Origin: an uncultured Desulfobulbaceae bacterium
GTDB lineage: Bacteria > Desulfobacterota > Desulfobulbia > Desulfobulbales > Desulfocapsaceae
Direction of reading: 5' to 3'
Length of the DNA: 46,613 nt
NCBI GenBank assembly: GCA_937132035.1
Contig: CAKZOA010000141.1
Location: 1 to 46,613, forward strand
The position numbers were made by a program, and so were the translations under genes. Below are positions 8,161 to 42,279 of the stretch, piece by piece. Below the pieces are notes generated by a model, which ran no database searches, had not been told where the DNA came from, and saw only the letters and a program-made list of their open reading frames with translations. How positions within the stretch are numbered: the stretch's first letter is position 1; each line of letters starts with the position of its first letter.

Positions 8161-9831
8161 TCAGTCATCCAGGGCGAGAACCGCTCCGGTGGCTGCCGAC
8201 GATGCCAGGCGGCTGTAGATTTTCAGGTATCCGGAGATCACCCGGGGAGCCGGCTTTTGCCACCTACCTCGTCTTTTGGCCAGGATGGCGTCGTCTACCC
8301 GGAGCGAAATCTCCTTGGCGCCTATATCGATGACTATTTCATCGCCATTCTCAACCAGTGCCAGAGGGCCACCCGCCATCGCCTCGGGCGAAATATGGCC
8401 GACAAAGCAACCGTTGTTGGTCCCAGAGAACCGCCCGTCGGTAACAAGGGCGACGGTCTTGCCCATGCCCAGTCCATGGAGGAGTTTCATGGCCTTGAAC
8501 ATCTCCGGCATTCCCGGTCCGCCCTTGGGACCTTCGTAGCGGATAACGACGACGTCACCAGCGCTTACCTGGCCCTGCATGATCGCTTCATTGGCTTCCT
8601 GTTCACTGTTGAAAACCCGGGCTGGACCACTGAATGTATGCATTTCCGGATCAATGGCCGCCGGTTTGGTAATGGCCGAATCCGGTGCCAGATTGCCACG
8701 GAGAACGGCCAGTCCTCCGAAGGCACTGAAAGGATTTTGTAACGTCTTGATGACCTCATTATCCGGAGAACGATACGGCGCCACGTTCTCTGCCAGGCTT
8801 GCACCAGTGACCGTTGGGACGTCACCGTTGAGCAGGGGCAGCAGTTCGGCCATGACGGCAGGGACTCCGCCGGATCTGTGGAAATCGATAACATTGGCAG
8901 ATGCCGCCGGATTCATTTTGGCAACCAACGGTGTGGAACGACTTATCCGGTCAAATAGATCTATATCGAAGCCTATGTCCGCTTCATAGGCAATAGCCGG
9001 TATATGCAGCGCTGCATTGGTCGAGCCGCCAATGGCCGCCGTCAATCGAACCGCATTCTCCAGAGACTTCAAGGTAATAATTTGTCGAGCGGAGACCTCG
9101 TTTCGAATCAGTTCGACTATGGCTTCACCGCTGGCAAAGGCTACCTGCATCCTTCCGGCATGAGTTGCCGGTATCATGGCACTGCCTGTCAGCGACATAC
9201 CAAGCGCCTCGGCAATGCAGCACATGGTATTGGCCGTACCCAAAAACGAGCATGATCCGCAGGTAGGCGCACAGGTATCTTCCATGGCAACCAGTTCATC
9301 CATGTCGATGGCTCCCCGGCGCAATCTGCCGACACCTTCGATGATGGAAGTGGAATCAGAGGTACGGCCGTCTATCTGAGGTCCACCGAGCATTGGTCCG
9401 CCGTTCACCAGAATAGCGGGCAGATCGAGCCTGGCTGCCGCCATGAGCATGCCCGGCACTATCTTGTCACAGGAACCAAGCAGAACAATGCCGTCAAAGC
9501 GGTGGGCCTGAACCATCAGCTCAATGCTGTGAGCAATGATATCCCTGGTCGGCAGTATGTAACGCATACCCTCATGGCCTTCAGCGATACCGTCGCAGGC
9601 ACCGATGACGCCGAACTCAACAGGGGTCCCGCCATTGCTCCAGATACCGGCCTTAACCGACTCCGCTACCTGGCGCAGATTACTGTGACCGGGCACCACC
9701 GTACTCCAGGCGTTGGCCACTGCGATCATAGGTCTTTCAAGATTCCGATCACTGTACCCCATGGACTTGTAATAGGCGCGGTTAATACTCCACTCCGGCC
9801 TTTTGAGTATCTCCTGACTGCGCAGTTTCAT
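8161..9831 (-). CDS. IlvD/Edd-family dehydratase (sugar-acid or dihydroxy-acid dehydratase)
   Basis: [30 protein letters not shown] Fe-S ligand motifs; [14 protein letters not shown]...[10 protein letters not shown]. Confidence 0.93.
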
Positions 9832-9909
9832 CCTCGCCTCATTGTGGTAGATTTTTTGACAACATACACCGAACAGCCTGAAAAAATGTTGTGCCCATGC
9901 CAGTTCTTG

Positions 9910-10941
9910 TCAGCAGGCGAGAGCCGCCGCCATTCTTATGGCCTCCACCATTGACTGCGGATTGGCACGTCCATCGCCAGCTTTGTCAAAGGCAGTGCCA
10001 TGGTCCACCGATGTACGGACAATGGGCAGACCGATAGTGACATTTACTCCGGCCATCTGCCCCCAGGTATCAGTGGCATCGTCATAGACAAAGCCGGAAA
10101 GCTTTGCCGGAATATGCCCCTGATCGTGATACATGACCACCACTGCATCATACATCCCCCCCTTCATTTTGCTGAAAACGGTATCTGCGGGCAACGGCCC
10201 CTCCACCTGAATCATCAGAGCCCTGGCCGCCTCCACCGCCGGCAGTATTTCTTGTTCATCCTCAGTGCCGAAGAGGCCACCCTCGCCGCAATGCGGATTG
10301 AGACCGGCAACGGCTATGCGGGGAAGGGGTATCCCCAGCAGTTTGAGTGTTTCATTGGTGAGTTGGATCACTTTTTCTATCCGCTCCTTTTTCACCCGGT
10401 CACAGGCTTCCCGCAGCGAGACATGGGTTGACACATGGGTTATGCGAAAACCTTTGTCGGCGAGCATCATGGCAAAATCGGCGGTTCCCGTCTTCTCTCC
10501 GTAAATCTCGGTATGCCCGGCATAATGGTATCCGGCCATGTTTATAGCCGCTTTGTTGATCGGTCCCGTTACCGTGCCGTCAATATCACCGGCCATTGCC
10601 AGCGCTATGGCCCGGTCGACATATTCAAAAGAAGCCCGGCCCTGTGTTGCTGTCACGGTTTTATGCCGCAGTTCACCGATAGGGATGTTTTTGAGATCAA
10701 GAACATCCAGCGAGCCATGACGAAAGAGACCATCGTCTGGTTGTTCACAGCTGTTGATCTCCATCGACAGTTTCGAAAAGGCAACCGCGTTTGCCATAAT
10801 GGTGGCATCGCCAATGATCAGTGGCCTGCACAAAGTGTAGATATCTTTCTCTGCCAGGGCCTTGGCGCATATTTCAGGGCCGATTCCTCCGGGGTCCCCC
10901 ATGCTAATGCCAAGAAGCGGAAGTTTTTTCGGATGTGCCAT
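9910..10941 (-). CDS. PdxA-family 4-phosphate dehydrogenase (likely PdxA2-type, acid-sugar catabolism)
   Basis: LGISMGDPGGIGPEI...GHTEIYGEKTG...NPHCGEGGLFGTEDE...YHDQGHIPAK. Confidence 0.93.
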   Translation of the reverse strand: MAHPKKLPLLGISMGDPGGIGPEICAKALAEKDIYTLCRPLIIGDATIMANAVAFSKLSMEINSCEQPDDGLFRHGSLDVLDLKNIPIGELRHKTVTATQGRASFEYVDRAIALAMAGDIDGTVTGPINKAAINMAGYHYAGHTEIYGEKTGTADFAMMLADKGFRITHVSTHVSLREACDRVKKERIEKVIQLTNETLKLLGIPLPRIAVAGLNPHCGEGGLFGTEDEQEILPAVEAARALMIQVEGPLPADTVFSKMKGGMYDAVVVMYHDQGHIPAKLSGFVYDDATDTWGQMAGVNVTIGLPIVRTSVDHGTAFDKAGDGRANPQSMVEAIRMAAALAC

Positions 10942-10950
10942 TCGTTACCT

Positions 10951-12225
10951 CTACTTGAGTTGTTGGATAAGCTCCAGCAGTGCATCGTCGCTGCCAAAGG
11001 CGCCGGCCTTGGTTACCACCGGCAGTCCATTATAATCCCCGCCGACAACCATCCCCAGTACCAGACCGGGAAGTATTTCCTCCTGCAGACATATGCCGTC
11101 AGCGGCTATATCGCCCAGTACGGCCTCGGCGGTATCCCCTCCGGAGAGAAAAAGACCATCGAAAACATCATCTTGAAGAACCGATGCCGCGCACCTGGCT
11201 ACAGCCGCTATCACCAGATTCGGCTCCACCTGCTGCGCCGCCTTCTCGGAAATAGGAGCCAGTGACATGACAATGCCGGAGGAGCTGCGGGCAAGATCGC
11301 TCCCACCGCTGCTCGACGACTCCACAGGGGCTCCTTCTTCTGCGAGGAGCTCTTCGGGCTGCAGAAGAATATGTGTCATATCCGCCTGCACCGTCAATCG
11401 CTCAACCTGTCTTTTCATGACCTGTGAGGCAGAACCGCAGACAAGAAGCCATCGGCGCACAGAAGGACGTCGGAAACCTTCTCTTTCTTGCCTGTCGGCG
11501 GCTGTCACCTCCACAACCGCCGAGGCGAGTCCGGCAGAACCAGCCAGCAGAATATGAGCCTTGTTCAATTGTCGGCGGGCAAGAAGAGCGATTGTCTGCA
11601 AGTGCTCTGTGCTGAGCGCATCGAAAACAAAGTGTCTGCAGCCGCGGCGAGTAAGCTGCCAAAGCCTTTTTTCGAGTTCACCAGGGCCACTGTCAATCCA
11701 GTCGAGACCAACATGTCCCACCTGAAAATCGCTCTGAGTGCCCAGCAGAACCGAGAGCCGCGACTCCTTTACCGGACAGAGCGGATCCCGGCCTATTTCC
11801 GTCTGGGCCACGGGCACCCCGGCAACCATATGTACATCGTCTCGCGTTGTTCTTCCCTGCACGGGAAGCGCCGGGGCGACAAAACTCATCTCCGCCCTGC
11901 TCTGCCGTAAAACTGCGTCTAGTTCCGCGCCGATATTACCCCGCAGGCAGGAATCTATCTTTTTATAGATCAGCGGAGGGAGATCACTGCCCACCCCGGC
12001 CAGGGCTGCAGTCACTCGCTCGGCGGCTTCCCCTGCCTCGACATGGCGCGAATTGGTAAAAATCGACAGCCCTCCGGCCATACCGTTCGCACAGGTGCGC
12101 GTTTCAGCAGCATAGTGTTTCAGAAACATCCTGCCGGCAATACGGCAAAACTGCACTCCGGTATCGGCACCGCCGGTGAGATCATCGGCGATAACAATGG
12201 CGTCGGGCATATTGGCCTTGGTCAT
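10951..12225 (-). CDS. four-carbon acid sugar kinase family protein (DUF1537)
   Basis: IVIADDLTGGADTGVQF at N-terminus, YKKIDSCLRGNIGAE, C-terminal LFLSGGDTAEAVL and KAGAFGSDDAL. Confidence 0.93.
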   Translation of the reverse strand: MTKANMPDAIVIADDLTGGADTGVQFCRIAGRMFLKHYAAETRTCANGMAGGLSIFTNSRHVEAGEAAERVTAALAGVGSDLPPLIYKKIDSCLRGNIGAELDAVLRQSRAEMSFVAPALPVQGRTTRDDVHMVAGVPVAQTEIGRDPLCPVKESRLSVLLGTQSDFQVGHVGLDWIDSGPGELEKRLWQLTRRGCRHFVFDALSTEHLQTIALLARRQLNKAHILLAGSAGLASAVVEVTAADRQEREGFRRPSVRRWLLVCGSASQVMKRQVERLTVQADMTHILLQPEELLAEEGAPVESSSSGGSDLARSSSGIVMSLAPISEKAAQQVEPNLVIAAVARCAASVLQDDVFDGLFLSGGDTAEAVLGDIAADGICLQEEILPGLVLGMVVGGDYNGLPVVTKAGAFGSDDALLELIQQLK

Positions 12226-13499
12226 CGCCGCATCTCTTCTGCCGGTAGCGGTAACATATCGGGCGCATGGGTGAGTACGGTTAACCTGGCATCTGCACCC
12301 TGCTGTTGAAAAGCTGAGTGTAGTGCTTCCTCGATGGTGTCGGCATGACTGAAACCCAGTAGCTCCTTGTCTTTTTGCGTTATGCCCGGTGAATACATAA
12401 TCACGGAAGCCTTCTCCCGGACCATGGCCCAGGCGGCAGCAAGGGCGGCTGCCACACCGTTTTTGATACGGCCCTGGCGGTATCCTGACTGAATATCAGC
12501 AGAGGACCAGGCCGTATATTCGAGAAGATCGGTATGTACCGGACTGACGCCTTCCGGCGCCGGTGTACAGACAATGATGGTTCCCCCCGGCCGAATCATG
12601 CGCTGGGCGGGATAGAGTGACTTGTGCGACTGCCAGAAGTCGAGGTCGCAGGGAAAAGAGTTGGCCAGCACGATATCTGGGATTTCGTGGTAGACCACAC
12701 CGTATATCTTCTTGGCAAGCTGCGTTCCTTTCTTGAAAGCCGCCCGTTTTTCACCGAAGAAGAGACCGACGACACCGCCGTGACTGTCCATTACCACGTT
12801 AAAAATTGTCTCCATGCCGACCATGTCAGCCATATCGTCCATATCGCGGCGCACCGGATTATCCTCGATGCCGAGAAAGGAGTCTCCCCCGCCTTTACAG
12901 GAGAGCAGGTGCGTTTCCGCAGTTGTTTGGGCGCTGCAGACCCCGGGCTGGATTATCTTGGAGGATCCGGAGTATCCTGGAATATGATGTGGGACGATTG
13001 CGCCCAGGCCGATGACGACGTCGGCTTCGGCCACCAGTCTGTTGACTGCCAGCGGTGTTCCCTGGCGCGAGCGACCGAGATCGAGCAGATTGACCGGATC
13101 CCGCCATTGGTGATTGACGACGTCAATACGTCTGTAGACCTGAGCACCGACCTTGTCCCGCATCTCTTCCTCACGCATATACCGGTGAGTGCCGAGGGCC
13201 ATAATGCAGCAGATGTTTTTATCGGGAACGCCGACGGCATTAAGACGGTCGAGCAGTGGCGGCAGAATTTTGTCGGCCGGGGTCATGCGAGTGTTGTCGT
13301 CACTGACGACGGTATCCGTCGGTCTGACCCATTCTCGCATGAGCGGCTGGCCGATTGGATTGTCGAGGGCATCGGCGATATGTTTTTCGAGATCGGTGAG
13401 GGCCTCTGAAGGTTGAGGTGAGAGGATCTCCGCTAAATTATCATTGTCCACCGTAAAGTTCAGGTCGGCACCGCCGAAAGGTATGTGTACATCAGCCAT
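12222..13499 (-). CDS. LarA-like nickel-pincer-dependent racemase/epimerase, copy 1
   Basis: IMALGTHRYM...PHHIPGYSGSSKIIQPGV...THLLS match LarA/DUF2088 active-site blocks. Confidence 0.88.
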   Translation of the reverse strand: MADVHIPFGGADLNFTVDNDNLAEILSPQPSEALTDLEKHIADALDNPIGQPLMREWVRPTDTVVSDDNTRMTPADKILPPLLDRLNAVGVPDKNICCIMALGTHRYMREEEMRDKVGAQVYRRIDVVNHQWRDPVNLLDLGRSRQGTPLAVNRLVAEADVVIGLGAIVPHHIPGYSGSSKIIQPGVCSAQTTAETHLLSCKGGGDSFLGIEDNPVRRDMDDMADMVGMETIFNVVMDSHGGVVGLFFGEKRAAFKKGTQLAKKIYGVVYHEIPDIVLANSFPCDLDFWQSHKSLYPAQRMIRPGGTIIVCTPAPEGVSPVHTDLLEYTAWSSADIQSGYRQGRIKNGVAAALAAAWAMVREKASVIMYSPGITQKDKELLGFSHADTIEEALHSAFQQQGADARLTVLTHAPDMLPLPAEEMRR

Positions 13500-13503
13500 G
13501 GGG

Positions 13504-14781
13504 TCAGTCTACATAGAGGTCGGGAATGAACATCACAATTTCAGGAACATAGGTCATAAGCACGAGAACACCTATCATGACAAGTAAAAACGGCATGATA
13601 TAGCGTATGATCTCCGAAAGCTGAATATTGGCAATGTTACATGAAATGAACAGACAGATTCCCAGGGGTGGTGTGAGCATGCCAATGGCCAGGGCGGTGA
13701 CCATGACTACGCCGAAGTGAACGGGATCTATGCCAAACTGTACTATTACCGGTAGGAAAACAGGTGTCAGGATAATCAGGGAAGCAGAAGTCTCCATGAA
13801 GGTACCAACAGCCAGCAGGCAGATCAAAATCAGCGAATAGAGAATCAGCGGCGAAGAGGTAAGGCTCACCAGGTAGGCAGCAACGTTCTGCGGCACCCGC
13901 TCGGCGGTGAGAATCCAACCGAAGATATTTGCCGTTGCAATCAGCAGCATAACCGTTGAGGTGGAAATGGCCGCTTTGGCAAAAATCCGTGGCAGATCAC
14001 GCAGTTTCAACTCCCGGTAAATGATAAAACCGACCAGGGCGCCATAGACGGCGGCCACCACAGCCGCCTCGGTAGGGGTGAATATACCGCCGAGAATACC
14101 GCCAAGGATTATAAGCGGCATCAGCAAGGCCCAGAAAGCGCCGACAAAGGTGGTAACAATTGCCTTGAAACCCTGAAAAGTATCGCGGGCGTAGCCGGCC
14201 CGTTTGGCCAGAAAATAACTGACGACTATGAGACTGCCACCGATGAGCGCCCCCGGTATGAAACCGCCGAGGAAGAGCTTGCCAATGGAAACGCCGCCAA
14301 CCACGCCATAGATAATCATTGGTATGGAGGGGGGAATGATAACGCCGATGGATCCACCGGCAGCCTGAACGGCGGCGGCAAATCCTTTATCATAGCCCTT
14401 GCGTATCATCGCCGGTATGGATACGGCGCCGACGGCGGCAGTATCGGCTGCTGCCGCACCGGAAATACCGGCAAAAAACATAGCGGCGACAACGGCCACC
14501 ATGGCCAGACCGCCGACGACGAAGCCGACAATGGCATGAGCGAAATCAAAGAGTCTGCGGGAAATGCCTCCGGCCTCCATGAGTTCTCCCGCCAGCATGA
14601 AAAAAGGGATGGCCATCAGAGGAAAAGAGTCGGTCCCGGTGAACAGTCTCTGGGCCGCCAGGGTCAGTGGCAGATTGGAGGCAAACTCCAGCGTGGCAAC
14701 CGAGGCCACACCGATGGAAAAGGCAATGGGAATGCCAATGATAAAGCAGACAATCAGGGAAAGAAACAGAAAGGCGGTCAT
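13504..14781 (-). CDS. TRAP transporter large permease (DctM)
   Basis: FPLMAIPFFMLAGELMEAGGISRRLFDFA...GGSIGVIIPPSIPMIIYG. Confidence 0.95.
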   Translation of the reverse strand: MTAFLFLSLIVCFIIGIPIAFSIGVASVATLEFASNLPLTLAAQRLFTGTDSFPLMAIPFFMLAGELMEAGGISRRLFDFAHAIVGFVVGGLAMVAVVAAMFFAGISGAAAADTAAVGAVSIPAMIRKGYDKGFAAAVQAAGGSIGVIIPPSIPMIIYGVVGGVSIGKLFLGGFIPGALIGGSLIVVSYFLAKRAGYARDTFQGFKAIVTTFVGAFWALLMPLIILGGILGGIFTPTEAAVVAAVYGALVGFIIYRELKLRDLPRIFAKAAISTSTVMLLIATANIFGWILTAERVPQNVAAYLVSLTSSPLILYSLILICLLAVGTFMETSASLIILTPVFLPVIVQFGIDPVHFGVVMVTALAIGMLTPPLGICLFISCNIANIQLSEIIRYIMPFLLVMIGVLVLMTYVPEIVMFIPDLYVD

Positions 14782-15272
14782 AATCGCACCTCCCTGTCAA
14801 GCGGCCGTCCCTGCATGGCGGAGATCATGACGCGGACAGAATTGATGAACATGAAGATCGACCCCACAGGAACCGCCATATAGGGATAGAGCATGGAGAT
14901 GTGCATGGAGGCCGACTCCTGGAACCTGATTATACCCAGGATCTTGAAGCCCCAATAAATTATCATGAGGAGAAACACTTGTATGATCAGATTGGCGACA
15001 ACCACGGTCCAGCGGTGCAGGGATGGCGGCAGCAGTTTTTCCATCAGGTCTATGCCCAGATGAACCTGATACCGGACGCCCGCTGCAGCGCCCATGAAGG
15101 AGATCCAGACGAAAAGATACCTGCCGGCCTCTTCGGACCAGGAAAGAGGATCGTTTAAAACAAAGCGGTACCATACCTGGGCTGTAATAACGACAACCAT
15201 CCCGGCCATCAGCAGAGCCAGAAACCAGTTGATGCAGCGATCCATGATTTCGAAAAACGGTGTGAGAAACAT
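14778..15272 (-). CDS. TRAP transporter small permease (DctQ)
   Basis: WSEEAGRYLFVWISFMGAAAGVR motif; start trimmed to MFLTPFFEIMDR after AGGAGG; 4-nt overlap with DctM. Confidence 0.92.
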   Translation of the reverse strand: MFLTPFFEIMDRCINWFLALLMAGMVVVITAQVWYRFVLNDPLSWSEEAGRYLFVWISFMGAAAGVRYQVHLGIDLMEKLLPPSLHRWTVVVANLIIQVFLLMIIYWGFKILGIIRFQESASMHISMLYPYMAVPVGSIFMFINSVRVMISAMQGRPLDREVRL

Positions 15273-15310
15273 CTGTCCTCCTGAAAACCTTCGAGAAAAG
15301 AGGGCAGTTC

Positions 15311-15338
15311 GACCCGACCGGGAAAAGCCGGCCGGGTC
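15311..15338 (-). other. stable intergenic hairpin between DctP and DctQ genes
   Basis: GACCCGACCGG-gaaaag-CCGGCCGGGTC; second inverted repeat GGTCCAG(15346-15352)/CTGGACC(15371-15377). Confidence 0.7.
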
Positions 15339-15402
15339 AGACCTGGGTCCAGCAGTACACAAGTCAACGCCTGGACCGGAGCATCAAAGAACGACAGGAC
15401 TC

Positions 15403-16410
15403 TTACATCGCCGCGGCCTTAGCTGCATCGATAAGCCGTTGTCCTTCTTCCTGGTCGCCGCCGCCAATCGCTTTGATCACGGAATCATTGGTATAGACCG
15501 GCGCGACTGCCTTGACAAAAGGTTCTTTATCCGGGTGGGTAACGACCATGCCTTCCTTGGCCAACGCCTGCTCAAGTTCCTGGTCGGCTTTGAGGGAAAG
15601 CTCACGCTCATATGTTTTGGCCTTGGCTGCGGCATCGGCGACGATTTTCTGGTGCTCGGGACTGAGGGTCTGCCAGGTGATTTCGCTGATCAGCATTACT
15701 GCCGGCGAATAGAAATGTCCGGTCATAGCCAGATATTTCTGTACCTCAAAGAACCGCGAGGAATGGATGACCGCCAGGGGGTTTTCCTGGGCGTCGACTA
15801 CTCCCTGTTCCAGAGCTGTGTAGAGTTCGCCGAAAGCCATCGGTGTGGGGCTGGCGCCCAGGGCTTTCATGGTCAGTATGAAAACATCGTCTTCCATTAC
15901 CCTGATCTTCAGTCCGTCCATATCACTCGGGGCATTTATCGGACGCTTGGAATTGGTGATATTACGGAAACCGTTTTCATACCAGCCCAAAGAGCGGATA
16001 CCGACTTTGACGAATTTGTCGGCGATCGATTGACCGATTTCGCCGTCGAGAACACGGTAGCATGACTCACGATCCTTGAACAGAAACGGCAGATTAAAGA
16101 GTTTGACCTGGGGAATGAAATTGCCCATCGGTCCAGTTGAAGTGAGGGTCATCTCCAGAGAGCCGAGCTGCAGACCTTCGACCATATCCCGCTCAGAACC
16201 AAGCTGGGCCGCCGGAAATACCTGGACTTCGATCTCACCGCCGCTTTCTTTGGCAACGATATCACCGAAGTACTCTGCGGCCTGATTATAGATATGACTC
16301 GGCTGTGTGGAAGTACCGAGTTTAATCACTGTCTTGGCATACCCTGTCGTCGAAACAGCAATAACTGCAAACAATGACGCTACTACAGTTGCCAACGCTT
16401 TCTTGCGCAT
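15403..16410 (-). CDS. TRAP transporter substrate-binding protein (DctP)
   Basis: Signal peptide MRKKALATVVASLFAVIAVSTTGYA; KLFNLPFLFKDRE, ITNSKRPINAPSDMDGLKIRVMED; GGAGG before the ATG at 16410. Confidence 0.95.
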   Translation of the reverse strand: MRKKALATVVASLFAVIAVSTTGYAKTVIKLGTSTQPSHIYNQAAEYFGDIVAKESGGEIEVQVFPAAQLGSERDMVEGLQLGSLEMTLTSTGPMGNFIPQVKLFNLPFLFKDRESCYRVLDGEIGQSIADKFVKVGIRSLGWYENGFRNITNSKRPINAPSDMDGLKIRVMEDDVFILTMKALGASPTPMAFGELYTALEQGVVDAQENPLAVIHSSRFFEVQKYLAMTGHFYSPAVMLISEITWQTLSPEHQKIVADAAAKAKTYERELSLKADQELEQALAKEGMVVTHPDKEPFVKAVAPVYTNDSVIKAIGGGDQEEGQRLIDAAKAAAM

Positions 16411-16488
16411 AACTTCCTCCTTCATTTGATTAAGCTACCTACACTTTCGCCAAACCGTCCCCGACGCGTGCCAAACGATGTACATCGT

Positions 16489-17787
16489 TTATGGTTCGAG
16501 AATTGGGAAGGTATTGGCACCCTGTGGCATTACCGTCACTTTCGGCATGTTTTTCCCACACTTCTCATACGCCATCTCAAGGGCTTCCTCAATGGAGGTC
16601 ACCCCCTGTATGCCCGCTTTTCGGGCAATGTCTACATTTTCCTCCTTGGTTACCATGATTATGGTGCCTTTGCTGCTGTATTCGATCTGTCGTACCGCTA
16701 CCCACCCGGAAATAAGAAAATCGGCTCGTACCGCCTTTTCCATGGCCAGGGGATTGGGAAAGTCAAACCAGTCGAAAAATTCACGAGGCTCCTGAATATC
16801 TGGACATTCCGCCAAAAGAATAACAACCCCTCCGGGTTTCATCGCATAGACCGCATTGTCAATGGTCTTCTGCGACTGGTATAGATTGATATCCTTGGGA
16901 TAGCCGCCGGTGGAGGCAATGACGATATCGGCCTGTTCCCTGATCGGTACCCCGAAAATGTCATCGACCATCTCCGTTGCTGCAAGCCAGGCGGAAACCC
17001 AGTTACCGGTAAAAATGCCGGTGATGTCGCCGTCCAGATTCGGCACGACGTTGACGATGAAGTCAGGTTGAATGAAAGCCGCCGCCTCCATCATATCTTC
17101 ATGGGCGGGATTACCACTGGTTTTCATGTTTGCCGCCAGAGGGCTCGAGCCTTCGCCGACATTTTTCTGCATAGCCCACATGTGGCACTGCTGGATGGTC
17201 TTCAAAGAAGCAACGCCCGGCATGACGCTCTTGCGTCCGCCACCGTAACCCACCATGTAATGATAGATTACCCCGCCGGTGAGAATAACTCTGTCGGCTC
17301 CAGCGACGATTGCGTTAATCGATACTTCCGTACCGCGGCTGGTCTTGCCGTAGTACACCATATTGTCACTGTCCCAGGCATCGTGGTTGAGTACCCTGAC
17401 GCGCCGACATATTTCTGTGGTGCATATTTCCTCAAGCTCAGCCTGGGTGTTCTGGCGATGGGCGCCAACGGCGATGAGTATGGTGATATCTTCCTCATTG
17501 ATTCCCGCTGCCACCAGATAGTCGATCAACACAGGTAATGTCTGGTTGTTGCGCTGCCAGCCGCGGGTTATGTCGCTGACGGTGATGGCCACCTTCTCTC
17601 CGGCGTTTACTATTTCCTTGAGCGGAGGGCAGTCGATCGGATGATCAAGGGCATGCAGATAGGCCTTTTTCAGATCCTCGGGAGGCCTGCGGTTCCTGCC
17701 CTGCAAATGATACAGCACCTGCTCTTTGAGTAGAGAGAAGGTTACTGCTTCTTTACCGATGTTGAGAGTAAAATCAACGTTTTCCAT
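16489..17787 (-). CDS. LarA-like nickel-pincer-dependent racemase/epimerase, copy 2
   Basis: LIAVGAHRQN...YHYMVGYGGGRKSVMPGVASLKTIQQCH matches LarA/DUF2088 active-site blocks. Confidence 0.9.
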   Translation of the reverse strand: MENVDFTLNIGKEAVTFSLLKEQVLYHLQGRNRRPPEDLKKAYLHALDHPIDCPPLKEIVNAGEKVAITVSDITRGWQRNNQTLPVLIDYLVAAGINEEDITILIAVGAHRQNTQAELEEICTTEICRRVRVLNHDAWDSDNMVYYGKTSRGTEVSINAIVAGADRVILTGGVIYHYMVGYGGGRKSVMPGVASLKTIQQCHMWAMQKNVGEGSSPLAANMKTSGNPAHEDMMEAAAFIQPDFIVNVVPNLDGDITGIFTGNWVSAWLAATEMVDDIFGVPIREQADIVIASTGGYPKDINLYQSQKTIDNAVYAMKPGGVVILLAECPDIQEPREFFDWFDFPNPLAMEKAVRADFLISGWVAVRQIEYSSKGTIIMVTKEENVDIARKAGIQGVTSIEEALEMAYEKCGKNMPKVTVMPQGANTFPILEP

Positions 17788-36209: not shown

Positions 36210-36449
36210 TTGCACTCCTTTGTGGTTATTCTCACACCGACAAATACTCCGGCTTAATAGTGTCAAATCAATTTTTTTTGCTATTTACAGGCGAATATCT
36301 TAGAATATGCATTGATAATTATCCAAAGAATATAAACTATTTCCGAAAGGTAGTATATGCAAGATTCAATGAACGTTTTCATGCGTTTTTTTTCACCGGC
36401 AGACAGCGCTGTGTCAGTGGATTATCACCGATGAATTGTGGAGACAACA

Positions 36450-37067
36450 ATGCCGCAGACCGCTAGTCGACACACCGTCATGCTCACTGTTCTCCACGCA
36501 GAAATGAGTCGGCTCACCAGCCTTCTGCAGTCAGGAATCTGTTTGAAGAGCAGCATCGGTATGGCGGTGGGCCTTTTCCTTACCGATCTGCCAGGCTTTG
36601 ATCAGAACTATCTGAATGAAAAGGTTCAGACCATATTCCTCGACGGCAGCGCAATCGACGACCTGCAGCGCCCTTTGTCCAGACCCCGTCACGTGCTGGC
36701 GCTTTCCGCCGCGATGCCCGGCCTGGCGGGCGCCATTTTCCGGAAAAACAGTCTCTGCGCCGCCCTGCGAACCCGCGCGCCCTCCTCAACCGTTGCGGAC
36801 GAAGGCAGTGGAGATACCGTCGTACAACTCAAATTATTCAATACCATCGCCAGAGAAAAAGGCGAGGCCCTACTCAGAGGCGGTGGTGTCTTTACAGGAG
36901 CCGCTCTCCTGCGATTTTTTGGGGATCATTCCTCTGTACTGCAAAGAGCACTGGGCGCCAGATATGACGGCAGCGATTTCCAGCCGCTGCAGCTGCACAC
37001 TTCAATCCGTGCCGACAGTGATTATTTTCTCACCATCACTACACCGGAAACGGAGAAATCGCCATGA
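36450..37067 (+). CDS. unknown protein co-translated with moeA
   Basis: GGAGA ribosome-binding-like sequence before the ATG at 36450; 4-nt overlap with the moeA start; no family recognised with confidence. Confidence 0.75.
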   Translation: MPQTASRHTVMLTVLHAEMSRLTSLLQSGICLKSSIGMAVGLFLTDLPGFDQNYLNEKVQTIFLDGSAIDDLQRPLSRPRHVLALSAAMPGLAGAIFRKNSLCAALRTRAPSSTVADEGSGDTVVQLKLFNTIAREKGEALLRGGGVFTGAALLRFFGDHSSVLQRALGARYDGSDFQPLQLHTSIRADSDYFLTITTPETEKSP

Positions 37068-38344
37068 CGCCAGCACATTCGAAAGAAACCCGCGATATGC
37101 TCGGCCGCAAGGGCCTGATGGCCGTCGGCCAGGCCAGGGAGTTGCTCCTTGAACGTCTGCAGTACACAGTCGATTCGGAGACACTGCCGCTTGATGAGGC
37201 TTTGGGACGCATTACCGCTATCGATATTTGCGCCCCGGAAGATCTTCCGGCCCATCCCCGTTCGACCATGGATGGGTATGCAGTCATCGCCGCCGATACC
37301 TTCGGCGCCTCGGAATCTATGCCCTGCTATCTCGATGTCACCGGTGAAGTTGTCATGGGCGAAATACCCGACCAGACCGTTCATCGAGGTACCTGTCTGC
37401 GTATCGCCACCGGCGGTCTCTTGCCCGAAGGCGCTGACAGCGTCGTTATGTTCGAACACAGCGTACCCGTGGATGCCACGCTCGTCGAGATAGTCAAAGG
37501 CGTCGGTGCCGGCAGCAATGTCATCGGTAGAGGCGACGACATAGAAAGGGGCCAGGTCGCCGTGAGTGCCGGTCGGTCTCTCCGCCCCCAGGAGCTTGGT
37601 CTTTTGGCAGGCCTGGGTCTCAAGGAGATAGCCGTCCGCAGAAAGCCTCGATTCGGCATAGTCTCAACCGGTGATGAAATCGTTGCCTACGGCACGACGC
37701 CTCCCCCGGGAAAGATACGCAATATAAACACCATCACCCTGGCAAGCCAGGCCAGAAAGCTGGGGGCCGAGGTGCGCGACTACGGAATCGTCGCCGACAC
37801 CGTCGAGAGCTTTTTTCCGGCACTCAAAAAGGCGGTGAGCGAAAATGATCTGGTGGTCTTCTCCGGCGGCAGTTCTGTGGGAGCCAGAGATCTCGGAGAG
37901 CAGGCCGTCGATACACTTGGCAGCCCCGGCATCCTCGTCCATGGTGTAGCCCTCAGGCCGGGAAAACCCATACTCATTGGGCTGCACGACAACACCCCTG
38001 TTTTCGGCCTGCCGGGACACCCGGTTTCGGCCATGGTCTGTTTCGATCTTTTCGTCGGCCCGGCCCTTGAAAAGATCGCCGGCATTCGAACAGAGGCATT
38101 GCCGCTTTCACCCTACATAGACGCCCTGCTGGCCCGCAATGTTCCCTCGGCAGCCGGCAGACAGGATATCATCCGCGTACGACTCGACCACAACAGCGCC
38201 GCCGGCCAGATCAGGGCATTTCCTGTTCTCGGTAAATCCGGCGCCATATCCACGCTTTCCAGAGCCCATGGCTATATTATAGTCGATGAGGACCTGCAGG
38301 GCGTAAGCGAAAATTCCCAGGTAAAGGTGTATCTGTATCAATGA
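37064..38344 (+). CDS. moeA: molybdopterin molybdotransferase MoeA
   Basis: HPRSTMDGYAVIAADT, IATGGLLPEGADSVVM, FGIVSTGDEIV, FSGGSSVGARD, GLPGHPVSAMVCFD. Confidence 0.95.
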   Translation: MTPAHSKETRDMLGRKGLMAVGQARELLLERLQYTVDSETLPLDEALGRITAIDICAPEDLPAHPRSTMDGYAVIAADTFGASESMPCYLDVTGEVVMGEIPDQTVHRGTCLRIATGGLLPEGADSVVMFEHSVPVDATLVEIVKGVGAGSNVIGRGDDIERGQVAVSAGRSLRPQELGLLAGLGLKEIAVRRKPRFGIVSTGDEIVAYGTTPPPGKIRNINTITLASQARKLGAEVRDYGIVADTVESFFPALKKAVSENDLVVFSGGSSVGARDLGEQAVDTLGSPGILVHGVALRPGKPILIGLHDNTPVFGLPGHPVSAMVCFDLFVGPALEKIAGIRTEALPLSPYIDALLARNVPSAAGRQDIIRVRLDHNSAAGQIRAFPVLGKSGAISTLSRAHGYIIVDEDLQGVSENSQVKVYLYQ

Positions 38345-40266
38345 GCGTAAAAAATATCTATGTCAGCAATACCCCGCTGCCCAAAGCCAAACAGTTATGG
38401 CATGCAGCACTGAAAGAGCACGGTTTCAGTCACGGTGCGCGTACCGAGACCATTAAGGTCGACGACAGTCTTGGCAGGCTGACGGCGGTAGCGGTCATGG
38501 CCGGGAACTCGTCTCCTTCCTACAATGCCGCCGCCATGGACGGCATTGCCGTCCGTTTTCTTCAGCTCGCCTCCGCAAGTGAAGCACATCCGGTGGTACT
38601 GCAGAAAGAAGACTATGCAGCGGTAAACACAGGGAACGCCCTGCCGGCCGGCTTCGATGCCGTGGTCATGATTGAAGATGTACACATGCTGGACGGCGAC
38701 AAAACGGAACTCACCGCTCCGGCGACACCCTGGCAGCATGTACGTACCATCGGCGAGGATATCGTTGCCACCGAGTTGATCCTTCCCGAAGGCCATCGCA
38801 TCAGGCCGATCGACCAGGGTGCCATGCTCGCCGGCGGCGTCACCGAAGTCGAAGTCCGCTGTCCCCCACAGGCGATGGTTATCCCCACCGGCAGCGAACT
38901 CATCCAGCCAGGGGAAAGCGGGCGCCCCGGACAGATTATCGAATTCAACAGCCGCATCCTCCGAGGCTACCTGCAGAGCTGGGGTGCGCAGGCCGAAACC
39001 AGCCTGCCTGTAAAAGACGATCCCGAATCCCTTAAACAGGCGATCTCCACCGCTGTAGCCGATTATGACCTGGTCATTCTCAATGCCGGCGCCTCCGCCG
39101 GCACCAAGGACTTCACCTCCTCGGTACTGGCGGAACTCGGTGAGGTAGTAGTTCATGGGGTTGCCATAAAACCTGGTAAACCTGTCATTTTGGCTGTTGT
39201 CGACCATACACCTGTGATTGGCCTTCCCGGCTATCCTGTTTCCGCTGTGCTGACCATGCGCCTGTTCGTCGAGGAAATGATAGACGATTATCTGGGCATC
39301 GAGTCTCCCCCCCCCAGGATCATCGAGGCATTGATGTCGCGGCCGGTGTATTCGGCCATGGGCGTCGACCAGTTTGTCAGGGCCACCCTTGGTCGCGTCG
39401 GCGCCAATCTGATGTGTACTCCCTCAGGCAAAGGGGCTGGAGCCGTCATGTCGCTTGTCAGAGGCGACGGCATACTGACCATTCCGGCCGGCAGCGAAGG
39501 CGTCGGCGCCGGCGAGCGGGTGCAGGTGGAGCTGCTCCGGGACCCTTCTGAAATAGAGTCCACCCTGGTAGTGATCGGCAGCCACGACAATGTACTCGAC
39601 CTCATTGCAAATCAGCTGCACAAGAATCGTCCCTCGGTACGCCTGTCCTCTGCTCATGTCGGTTCCATGGGCGGCATCATGGCTATCCGCAGGGGGGAAG
39701 CACATATCGCTGGCTGCCATCTGCTCGACGAACAGACAGGAGAGTATAATGTTTCCTTTATCCAGCGGCTGCTGGCTGGTAAAGCCTTGAAACTGGTTAA
39801 TCTCTGCTACCGTGAGCAGGGTTTCATTGTCAAAAAAGCAAACCCGAAGAATATACATTCTTTCAGAGACATCGCCGACCATGGACTGACCTTCATCAAC
39901 CGCCAGGGCGGCGCCGGCACCAGGCTGCTTACCGATAAGATTCTCAAGGAAGAAGGCGTGCAGCCTTCATCTCTTTACGGCTACGACCATGAGGAATATA
40001 CCCATATGTCCGTAGCGGCGGCGGTGGCCTCAGGCAGCGTCGATGCCGGCATGGGCATCCGGGCCGCGGCCGTGGCTCTCGACCTCGACTTCGTCGCCGT
40101 TGCCGAGGAACGGTATGACCTCATCATCCCCACTGATTTTTACGGCGATGACAAAATAACCGCCCTGCTCAAACTTATTGGCGACGACAGTGATTTCCAT
40201 AACCGAATTACCGCTCTTGGAGGCTACGACCTCCGGGACTGCGGCAGTATCGTCTATGAACAGTAA
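38341..40266 (+). CDS. MoeA-like domain fused to a periplasmic-binding-like C-terminal domain
   Basis: MoeA motifs YNAAAMDGIAV, VIPTGSELI, NAGASAGTKDF, GLPGYPVSAVLT; C-terminal VVIGSHDNVLDLIANQLHKN...AVASGSVDAGMGIRAAA matches the COG1910-type PBP domain. Confidence 0.92.
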   Translation: MSVKNIYVSNTPLPKAKQLWHAALKEHGFSHGARTETIKVDDSLGRLTAVAVMAGNSSPSYNAAAMDGIAVRFLQLASASEAHPVVLQKEDYAAVNTGNALPAGFDAVVMIEDVHMLDGDKTELTAPATPWQHVRTIGEDIVATELILPEGHRIRPIDQGAMLAGGVTEVEVRCPPQAMVIPTGSELIQPGESGRPGQIIEFNSRILRGYLQSWGAQAETSLPVKDDPESLKQAISTAVADYDLVILNAGASAGTKDFTSSVLAELGEVVVHGVAIKPGKPVILAVVDHTPVIGLPGYPVSAVLTMRLFVEEMIDDYLGIESPPPRIIEALMSRPVYSAMGVDQFVRATLGRVGANLMCTPSGKGAGAVMSLVRGDGILTIPAGSEGVGAGERVQVELLRDPSEIESTLVVIGSHDNVLDLIANQLHKNRPSVRLSSAHVGSMGGIMAIRRGEAHIAGCHLLDEQTGEYNVSFIQRLLAGKALKLVNLCYREQGFIVKKANPKNIHSFRDIADHGLTFINRQGGAGTRLLTDKILKEEGVQPSSLYGYDHEEYTHMSVAAAVASGSVDAGMGIRAAAVALDLDFVAVAEERYDLIIPTDFYGDDKITALLKLIGDDSDFHNRITALGGYDLRDCGSIVYEQ

Positions 40267-40327
40267 CCATGTACTTTCAGGATGGTCTACCAAACGAAAC
40301 TCAGAACCTACATGAGGAGAACAAAAA

Positions 40328-42055
40328 ATGACTGACAAGATTTTTCGCATAAACATGACGGATTTGACCACAGCGATCGAAGACGTGCCCGAAGGCTGGG
40401 CTGCTCACGGCGGCCGGGGCTTAACCTCAACCGTCGTTGCCGCCGAGGTACCACCGCTTTGCCACCCGCTGGGACCGAACAATAAACTGGTTATCGCCCC
40501 CGGCCTGCTCTCCGGAACTGCAGCCGCCAACTCCGGACGTATCTCGATAGGCGCCAAAAGCCCGCTGACCGGTACCATCAAGGAATCCAATGCCGGTGGA
40601 ACAGCGGCCCAACTGCTGGCGCGCTGCCACTGCAAGGCCATCATCATAGAGGGCCAGCCCCAGGCAGGAAAGTGGTACAACATATCCATCTCTCCGGGGG
40701 CGGTCTCCATCAACGAGGAAACCGAAACCATCGGTAAAGGCAATTTCGCCACGGCGGAAATACTCAAAAACCGATTCGAAGGCAAACCGGGCTTCATTGC
40801 CATCGGTCCAGCCGGCGAGATGAAAATGTCGGCTGCCAACATTTCCGTCAAAGACCCTGATTTTCGAATGCGCAGCGCCGGTCGCGGCGGCCTCGGTGCA
40901 GTCATGGGTTCCAAGGGCGTTAAATTCATCTCCATCGATCCTCAGGACGGCAAGGTTGAAATCGCCGAGCCCGAAGCCTTCAAAGAGGCTAATCGGGTTT
41001 TCGTCAAGGCCCTTGCCAATCATCCCATCAGCCAGGGTCTGGGCCAGTACGGCACCAACGTTTTGGTGAATATCATCAACGAATCCGGAGGTCTTCCCAC
41101 CAAGAACTTCACCCTCGGCCAGTTCGAAGGCCATGAGAAGATATCGGGTGAGACAATGTATGAGAGAATCCAGGAACGCGGCGGCAAGCCCAAGCATGGT
41201 TGCCATCCGGGATGTGTCATCCAGTGTTCCCAGATCTACAACGACGCCAACAATCAATACAAGACTTCCGGCTTTGAATATGAATCTATCTGGGCCATGG
41301 GTGCCGACTGCTGCGTCGACGACCTCGATCAGATTGCCGAGGCCGACAGTATCATGGATGATCTGGGAATCGACTCCATTGAAACATCAGTTGCGATGGG
41401 TGTTGCCATGGAGGCCGGCGTACTTGAGTTCGGTGATGGTGAGGGCATATGCAGAATTCTGCGCGATGAAGTCGGTAAGGGTACCGGCATGGGACGCCTC
41501 ATCGGCGGGGGTGCGGGCATGGTGGGCCAGATCTATGGCGTTGCCAGAGTGCCAGTTGTTAAAAACCAGGCGATCCCCGCCTACGATCCCCGGGCCATCA
41601 AGGGCATCGGCATCACCTACGCAACTTCAACCATGGGTGCCGACCACACCATGGGCTACTCCATCGCCACCAATATCCTCAACGTCGGTGGCTCGGTCGA
41701 CCCTCTCTCCAAGGAAGGCCAGGTGGAACTTTCCAGAAACCTGCAGATCGCCACGGCTGCCATCGACTCCACCGGCATGTGCCTTTTTATCGCTTTCGCC
41801 GCCCTCGACGACGAAACCTGCCTGCCGGCCCTGATCGACCTGATCAACGCCAGGTTCGGCCTGAAGCTCACCGGCGACGACGTCGTCAACCTCGGAAAAT
41901 ACATTCTGAAGACCGAAAAGGCCTTCAATGAAGCCGCCGGTTTCAGCAAGCAAGACGACAGACTGCCTGAGTTTTTCTCCATTGAGAAACTCCCTCCGCA
42001 CAATGTGGTCTGGGATTTCAGCGGTGAGGAGATCGACAGTTTCTGGGACTTCTAA
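40328..42055 (+). CDS. aldehyde ferredoxin oxidoreductase (AOR) family tungsto/molybdopterin enzyme
   Basis: RISIGAKSPLTGTIKESNAGG, MRSAGRGGLGAVMGSKGVK, GCHPGCVIQCS, DSTGMC. Confidence 0.94.
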   Translation: MTDKIFRINMTDLTTAIEDVPEGWAAHGGRGLTSTVVAAEVPPLCHPLGPNNKLVIAPGLLSGTAAANSGRISIGAKSPLTGTIKESNAGGTAAQLLARCHCKAIIIEGQPQAGKWYNISISPGAVSINEETETIGKGNFATAEILKNRFEGKPGFIAIGPAGEMKMSAANISVKDPDFRMRSAGRGGLGAVMGSKGVKFISIDPQDGKVEIAEPEAFKEANRVFVKALANHPISQGLGQYGTNVLVNIINESGGLPTKNFTLGQFEGHEKISGETMYERIQERGGKPKHGCHPGCVIQCSQIYNDANNQYKTSGFEYESIWAMGADCCVDDLDQIAEADSIMDDLGIDSIETSVAMGVAMEAGVLEFGDGEGICRILRDEVGKGTGMGRLIGGGAGMVGQIYGVARVPVVKNQAIPAYDPRAIKGIGITYATSTMGADHTMGYSIATNILNVGGSVDPLSKEGQVELSRNLQIATAAIDSTGMCLFIAFAALDDETCLPALIDLINARFGLKLTGDDVVNLGKYILKTEKAFNEAAGFSKQDDRLPEFFSIEKLPPHNVVWDFSGEEIDSFWDF

Positions 42056-42279
42056 TGAATGTAGAGGTCAAACTTTTCGCCTATTTCCGGGACAACCGCT
42101 TCAAGGTAAAAAACTTTACTTTCGAAGAGGCTGTCCCGGTCAGCCATGTGCTCGACCACCTGGGCATCAACGCCGACGAAGTCGGCGTGACCATGGTCAA
42201 TGGCCGTCACTGCCGGCTCGACACCCATCTGCAACCCGATGATTCACTGGGGATTTTTCCCATGATAGGCGGTGGTTAA
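42055..42279 (+). CDS. MoaD/ThiS-family sulfur carrier protein
   Basis: 74 aa beta-grasp-like protein ending FPMIGGG; start overlaps the AOR stop. Confidence 0.88.
   Translation: MNVEVKLFAYFRDNRFKVKNFTFEEAVPVSHVLDHLGINADEVGVTMVNGRHCRLDTHLQPDDSLGIFPMIGGG

Follow-up and report, generated by a model that had tools for sequence, protein, structure and literature searches.

What does a protein of no recognised family do at the head of an operon that otherwise encodes an AOR-family oxidoreductase, two MoeA proteins and a MoaD-like carrier? This question is raised by a contig of an uncultured Desulfobulbaceae bacterium (CAKZOA010000141.1, assembly GCA_937132035.1), analysed over its whole stretch of 46,613 nucleotides (nt), here called the window. 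MoaD carries the sulfur of molybdopterin, MoeA inserts the metal, and AOR uses a tungsten (W)-bis-molybdopterin cofactor. As far as we could find, the route by which AOR-family enzymes are loaded with their nucleotide-free bis-pterin cofactor is not known, which limits their production in other hosts. The analysis below indicates that the first gene of the operon, whose product has 205 amino acids (aa), has AOR as its constant genomic partner and very likely encodes a tandem MoaD-like protein; we lean towards a role for it in the maturation of one branch of AOR. The operon consists of five open reading frames (ORFs), all on the + strand at 36450-42279:

36267..36449, no strand: divergent intergenic region with a gpmI-like gene (minus strand) on one side and the operon on the other; from the gene layout, presumably the promoter region
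36450..37067, + strand: the 205-aa gene; ATG at 36450, stop codon ending at 37067, GGAG 6 nt upstream
37064..38344, + strand: moeA, 426 aa, plain MoeA architecture, molybdopterin metal insertase; PF03453, PF00994 and PF03454 above cut-offs
38341..40266, + strand: moeA-PBP, 641 aa, MoeA fused to a periplasmic-binding-protein-like domain; MoeA_N, MoCF_biosynth and MoeA_C plus PF12727 PBP_like (E 2e-76), NCBIfam NF011068 above cut-off
40328..42055, + strand: AOR-family bis-pterin oxidoreductase, 575 aa; AFOR_N PF02730 and AFOR_C PF01314
42055..42279, + strand: MoaD/ThiS-like sulfur carrier, 74 aa, C-terminal GGG; PF02597, E 4e-9

The ORFs and domain matches confirmed the five-gene order with three overlapping junctions that had been proposed in an earlier, sequence-only reading. 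The 205-aa gene overlaps moeA by 4 nt, moeA overlaps moeA-PBP by 4 nt and AOR overlaps moaD by 1 nt; a gap of 61 nt separates moeA-PBP from AOR, and GAGGAG lies ahead of the AOR start. The first gene was present as described, but its product had been counted as 206 aa, a figure that includes the stop codon.

The 205-aa protein is predicted to be a tandem MoaD-like β-grasp protein

Sequence searches with the 205-aa protein gave no Pfam, NCBIfam or PDB match. Across its 57-member homologue family, Pfam/NCBIfam matches were no more than scattered chance, with a ThiS match in 0/57, and a plasmid search yielded no real homologue. Two apparent fusions of 472 and 1106 aa (L085, L090) were artefacts of longest-ORF gene calling in GC-rich loci.

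The AlphaFold model of the protein was confident (predicted local distance difference test score, pLDDT, 92.3; predicted template modelling score, pTM, 0.87). In the model the secondary-structure order S1-H-S2-H-h-S3-S4-S5 is repeated twice. This is the order tabulated for MoaD by Burroughs et al. (PMC1949818), and both halves of the model follow it. The helix between strands 1 and 2 distinguishes MoaD from ThiS, TGS and the N-terminal module of AOR (AOR-N) (PMC1949818). The predicted domains and their strands (E) and helices (H) are as follows:

Domain 1, residues ~8-97, predicted MoaD-like β-grasp: E8-13, H16-27, E30-35, H40-45, H52-57, E61-64, E67-69, E80-86
Domain 2, residues ~122-197, predicted MoaD-like β-grasp: E122-130, H131-144, E146-149, H150-159, H161-165, E169-172, E175-177, E191-197

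Profile comparison using hhalign related half 1 to AOR-linked MoaDs with a P of 2.7e-5, compared to 7.7e-3 for the best of 40 column shuffles and 0.25 for the reversed profile. The two halves were related to each other at P 1.1e-5 (best shuffle 2.6e-3), and the match of half 2 to MoaD was weaker (P 7e-4 over 12 columns). A PDB fold search with the domain-1 model placed MoaDs on top, namely 6jc0 (probability 0.97), 3rpf (0.75) and 2q5w (0.66), with 1fm0 lower and TGS, ubiquitin, SAMP1 and ThiS further down. Collectively, these results suggest that the 205-aa protein very likely has a tandem MoaD-like β-grasp fold, although this is not proven. Sequence descent from AOR-N or MoeA was rejected, as no profile signal linked the 205-aa protein to either; against AOR-N, hhalign gave a P of 0.17, and the best of nine comparisons was 0.07.

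The MoaD tail is missing and a basic loop-helix is conserved

MoaD acts through its C-terminal Gly-Gly, and this ending was found in 0/57 homologues of the 205-aa protein. The sulfur-carrier chemistry of MoaD is therefore not open to it, and a role as sulfur carrier was rejected. It also has no match to PF02597 or the MoaD models. The missing tail suggests that the protein acts by binding. Cysteine was not conserved among the 57 homologues, the best column holding 16/57. There is thus no conserved metal or Fe-S site, and a redox or Fe-S role of its own was also rejected.

Conservation instead peaks where the MoaD tail would start and just beyond (S86, P90, G91, G94, R98, K99 and R107), and then at K128, F130, N131 and G145. 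S86, P90, G91, G94 and N131 are invariant in the homologues, and the basic positions R98, K99, R107 and K128 are each at least 93% conserved. A Gly-rich loop is thus followed by a helix that bears invariant basic residues, a combination suggestive of an anion site.

AOR is the constant genomic partner of the 205-aa gene

A search of an 84,980-species collection with the single sequence as query found relatives of the 205-aa protein at 28 loci, all apparently Desulfobulbales; in a sample of 297 genomes from across the phylum, 40 carried one. Adjacency was counted by hidden Markov model hits over all ORFs, and an AOR was taken as near if it lay within 5 kb. An AOR was near the gene at 23 of the 28 Desulfobulbales loci. 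Thirteen loci have the order 205-aa gene–moeA–moeA–AOR, ten have AOR–205-aa gene, three are truncated at contig boundaries, and at the remaining two (L005, L017) the order is 205-aa gene–moeA–moeA–moaD without AOR. In most of them a block recurs, either as 205-aa gene–moeA–moeA-PBP–AOR–moaD or as AOR–205-aa gene–moeA–moeA-PBP–moaD, which argues that the arrangement is not due to chance. In L017 (7851-11998) the 205-aa gene–moeA–moeA–moaD block is kept and the AOR lies elsewhere in the genome (74% identity). In L005 (7953-12336) no AOR lies within the block, and the only AOR seen in that genome is a more distant one. At two loci with AOR–205-aa gene–moeA-PBP (L024, L032), a plain moeA was not detected in the block.

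Of 39 further genomes of the phylum (two duplicate loci excluded), 30 had an AOR near, mostly as AOR–205-aa gene on one strand, with three divergent. By our own estimate, from 1-6 AORs per ~4 Mb genome, an AOR would be this close by chance in about 1-2% of cases. Linkage to moeA is almost confined to Desulfobulbales; moaD and thiF accompany AOR–205-aa gene outside this order too, and the operons seen include AOR–205-aa gene–moaD–thiF and AOR–205-aa gene–moeA–moeA–moaD–thiF. AOR is therefore the constant partner of the 205-aa protein, and the overlap with moeA is a lineage feature. No consistent neighbour was found for the unlinked copies of the gene. In one family (f43; L079, L086, L090) the gene is on the strand opposite the neighbouring AOR, and that AOR belongs to a separate subclade.

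The partnership also holds at the level of gene content. Among the 297 genomes, the branch of AOR to which the window AOR belongs was present in 38/40 carriers of the 205-aa gene compared to 50/257 non-carriers (Fisher P 4e-21, a value that overstates certainty, as the branch threshold of E < 1e-174 was chosen after the scores were seen and related genomes are not independent). The exceptions were G286, whose AOR of this branch is truncated, and G276, which has none. The sequence-only reading had allowed that its proposal of a maturation partner would fail if the gene were widely found without moeA/AOR. This came about by half: the gene often has no linked moeA, but the AOR branch accompanies it in nearly all carriers.

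On a tree of 109 AORs, the label "linked" changed 8 times compared to 36.5 times when shuffled, so that linked AORs fall into few clades. AORs from genomes with a distant 205-aa gene group in the same clades, and several related AOR clades are without the gene altogether. The partnership is thus clade-specific and not needed by every AOR. The gene has the genetic tie to one enzyme family expected of a Mo/W-enzyme-specific maturation factor. The alternative, that it has no functional connection and was carried to fixation as a passenger of the operon, is hardly credible: a minority of carriers do have it away from both AOR and moeA, but it co-occurs with the AOR branch even when unlinked, its sequence is strongly conserved, and it recurs in two gene orders.

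The presence of thiF in some of these operons, beside a tailed MoaD, bears on a further explanation, namely that the 205-aa protein is a pseudo-MoaD acting on molybdopterin synthase or on the ThiF/MoeB E1, where it might channel dithiolene sulfur to the AOR pathway or tune molybdopterin synthesis. The MoaD-like fold and profile fit this proposal, as do operons holding a separate tailed MoaD together with ThiF, although such operons do not in themselves show that an E1 activates the 205-aa protein. However, the Gly-Gly tail is missing, and a tailed MoaD is already encoded in the same operon. Moreover, molybdopterin synthesis is common to all molybdenum (Mo)/W enzymes, yet the gene tracks certain AOR clades. 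We consider this explanation unlikely.

In nine Desulfobulbales loci (L012:634-5940; similar in L013, L019, L024, L025, L027 and L030-L032) AOR–205-aa gene lies behind a run of genes of conserved size. In L012 the run encodes an HdrA-like FAD/4Fe-4S protein, FlpD/MvhD, a Fer4 + FrhB_FdhB_C protein, a Fer4_22 protein and an NAD-binding/DHODB-type protein. This cluster resembles Flx-Hdr, a name taken from its Pfam domains; it might provide a link between AOR and NADH/ferredoxin.

The genomic pattern also fits an accessory subunit that stays with the mature AOR, such as an electron-carrier docking surface or an oligomerisation factor. The neighbour that remains constant is AOR rather than moeA, in most cases immediately upstream and in the same orientation; the partnership tracks AOR clades; and in the nine loci just described the pair stands behind redox genes, Flx/HdrA-like in L012. 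Such a subunit would have no redox role of its own, as there is neither a conserved cysteine nor a flavin or Fe-S family match. Its predicted fold is MoaD-like, the gene stays with moeA/moaD in L005 and L017 while AOR is outside the operon, and in some carriers it lies far from AOR. An accessory subunit is therefore possible but doubtful.

The AOR, its MoaD and the two MoeAs

The window AOR contains AFOR_N and AFOR_C, the cluster cysteines in a Cys-X3-Cys-X3-Cys spacing variant, and DSTGMC. Its nearest solved structures are 9mqx, 1aor, 8c0z and 9g7j. These features identify it as an AOR-family oxidoreductase whose bis-pterin cofactor would hold tungsten or molybdenum. The Fe-S motif in its branch is mostly Cys-X3-Cys-X3-Cys, and Cys-X2-Cys-X3-Cys was seen in eight AORs without the 205-aa gene (phylum AOR loci, L176, L180 and others).

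The product of 42055-42279 belongs to the ThiS family, ends in Gly-Gly and adjoins AOR, as do the AOR-linked MoaDs; nearly all of those aligned with it end in GG. It is of the ThiS-like type called WorX in the tungsten-oxidoreductase literature and described in 2026 (PMC13328260), and AOR–moaD operons, some with moeA and moeB, have been known since 2006 (Iyer et al., PMC1779556). The suggestion that this MoaD is dedicated to AOR is plausible, with four ThiS-family ORFs in the genome and AOR-linked moaD published in 2006 (PMC1779556). Genome totals were five AFOR_C matches, four MoeA_N matches, four ThiS-family ORFs, three ThiF and one weak MoaE match.

Both MoeAs have the domains of metal insertases (MoeA_N, MoCF_biosynth and MoeA_C) and the PGKP and GLPGxPVS motifs, and the closest solved relatives of the plain MoeA are archaeal and E. 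coli MoeAs. The sequence-only reading had suggested that the two copies separate W from Mo insertion. One MoeA with such selectivity is known, M. extorquens MoeA1, which is tungsten-selective and has Arg in PGR and Ala replacing the motif Ser (PMC13197769). The four MoeA_N matches in the genome would also allow specialisation elsewhere in it. However, both window MoeAs keep PGK...S rather than the PGR...A pair. In addition, D. vulgaris, a member of the same phylum, has a pair with the same two architectures, a plain MoeA and a MoeA-PF12727 fusion (DVU2990, DVU0951), and transposon genetics showed that Aor depends on both for its W cofactor, with a cofitness of 0.85 (PMC10102598). There, loss of moaA, moaC, moaE, moeB, mogA, tupABC, moeA, moeA-2 or aor gave a chlorate advantage ascribed to lost Aor activity, and a W/Mo split was explicitly rejected by the authors for Desulfovibrio (PMC10102598). 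The genetics and the motif residues thus speak against the suggested split, which we regard as very improbable. The D. vulgaris pair is unlinked (PMC10102598), whereas in the window both genes share one operon with a single AOR. This is in line with the joint action seen in D. vulgaris, and it is relevant to the question of why a second moeA is retained in many bacteria.

Relation to known systems

The 205-aa protein resembles MoaD/ThiS carriers, including WorX (PMC13328260) and AOR-linked MoaD (PMC1779556), in its predicted β-grasp, the helix between strands 1 and 2, its occurrence in AOR operons and the profile of half 1. In contrast to these carriers, it has two domains per chain, no Gly-Gly end and no Pfam ThiS match, and it is encoded alongside a tailed MoaD.

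The AOR operon of Aromatoleum aromaticum encodes AorD and AorE, which are described as resembling MoaD and are absent from the purified enzyme (PMC6365974). When both were co-expressed and tungstate was supplied, AOR activity rose, as did the W content (PMC9295118). We liken them to the 205-aa protein by their published description, not by sequence. The A. aromaticum AOR has three subunits, and such subunit genes are not in the window operon.

AOR-N (PF02730) comprises ~200 residues in two tandem β-grasp domains that bind pterins, and it has been proposed to descend from MoaD-like precursors that recognised metallopterins as dimers (PMC1949818). The model of the 205-aa protein likewise has two tandem β-grasp domains. 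AOR-N differs from it in missing the strand 1-2 helix and in having no profile similarity to it, as given above.

Like the NarJ/TorD, XdhC/PaoD and FdhD chaperones, the 205-aa protein is small, is linked to a single Mo/W enzyme and has a proposed part in cofactor loading. Its predicted fold differs from the folds of those chaperones. The literature searched yielded no chaperone dedicated to AOR-family enzymes and, among open-licence papers, no description of a tandem MoaD-like protein. AOR–moaD(–moeA) operons are known, and the tandem MoaD-like partner is apparently new.

A candidate maturation factor for one AOR branch

The best explanation of the operon is that it encodes one tungsten enzyme along with proteins that assemble its cofactor. 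The dithiolene sulfur of molybdopterin would come from MoaD, acting with ThiF/MoeB and MoaE from other loci. Metal insertion would be a joint task of both MoeAs, not a choice between W/Mo alternatives, and AOR would receive W-bis-molybdopterin. The 205-aa protein would work by binding, not by sulfur transfer, most likely by holding apo-AOR, the pterin cofactor or both during the hand-over from MoeA to AOR. The conserved MPGLxGAxxRK...R loop-helix, together with a KxFN strand, could form an anion-binding surface for the pterin phosphate or tungstate.

Gene order, fold prediction, profile similarity, the missing tail and the co-occurrence with AOR are direct results of the analysis. From them we infer the binding partners, ligand and maturation step of the 205-aa protein. 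On this basis we somewhat favour the view that it is a maturation factor dedicated to one AOR branch, handling the W-bis-pterin cofactor or apo-AOR. The earlier suggestion of a partner in cofactor or enzyme maturation is borne out in part: the protein is tied to AOR by context and profile, and to moeA/moaD/thiF in Desulfobulbales. As a clade-specific tandem MoaD-like partner, it is a concrete candidate for AOR cofactor loading.

Several points weigh against this assignment. The support for it stems from genomes and models, and a pure AOR-binding subunit would leave an identical genomic pattern. The window AOR branch is absent from G276 although the gene is present there, and the gene is missing from over half of the genomes that have a related AOR, from which it follows that an AOR of this family can mature without the 205-aa protein. 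As to the fold, the Foldseek E-values of the domain-1 MoaD matches are weak (0.2-3). The full-length model gave no significant match in PDB and BFVD fold searches, and H. pylori MoaD alone was coherent at the domain level. Domain 1 modelled alone loses strands 1 and 2, so that the halves may be intertwined or mutually dependent. In the A. aromaticum work the effects of AorD and AorE were not separated, and without added tungstate W content was lower with aorDE (0.39 compared to 1.06) while activity was higher (PMC9295118).

A more specific form of the maturation role would have the 205-aa protein stand in for AOR-N as a separate protein, binding W-bis-molybdopterin as a pair and handing it over to apo-AOR. 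We hold this to be a rather improbable elaboration. If true, it would make the protein a chaperone devoted to cofactor insertion in the AOR family, and a present-day counterpart of the tandem β-grasp precursor, derived from MoaD, that has been proposed for AOR-N.

Other features of the window

The intergenic region ahead of the operon holds a single weak sigma-70-like match (36278-36306), which is not above chance. Neither the operon nor this region gave a match to a Moco riboswitch or any other Rfam RNA. A GGDEF-PilZ gene lies 3' of the operon, outside the conserved block.

On the minus strand at 8161-17787 the window contains an apparent sugar-acid catabolic cluster, with an IlvD/Edd dehydratase, PdxA, an SBD_N/NBD_C kinase, two lactate-racemase (LarA) family proteins and TRAP DctM + DctP. 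A LarA C-terminal domain was not detected in one of the two LarA proteins. The combination of two LarA-type genes, an SBD_N/NBD_C kinase and PdxA in one cluster may point to an unusual substrate.

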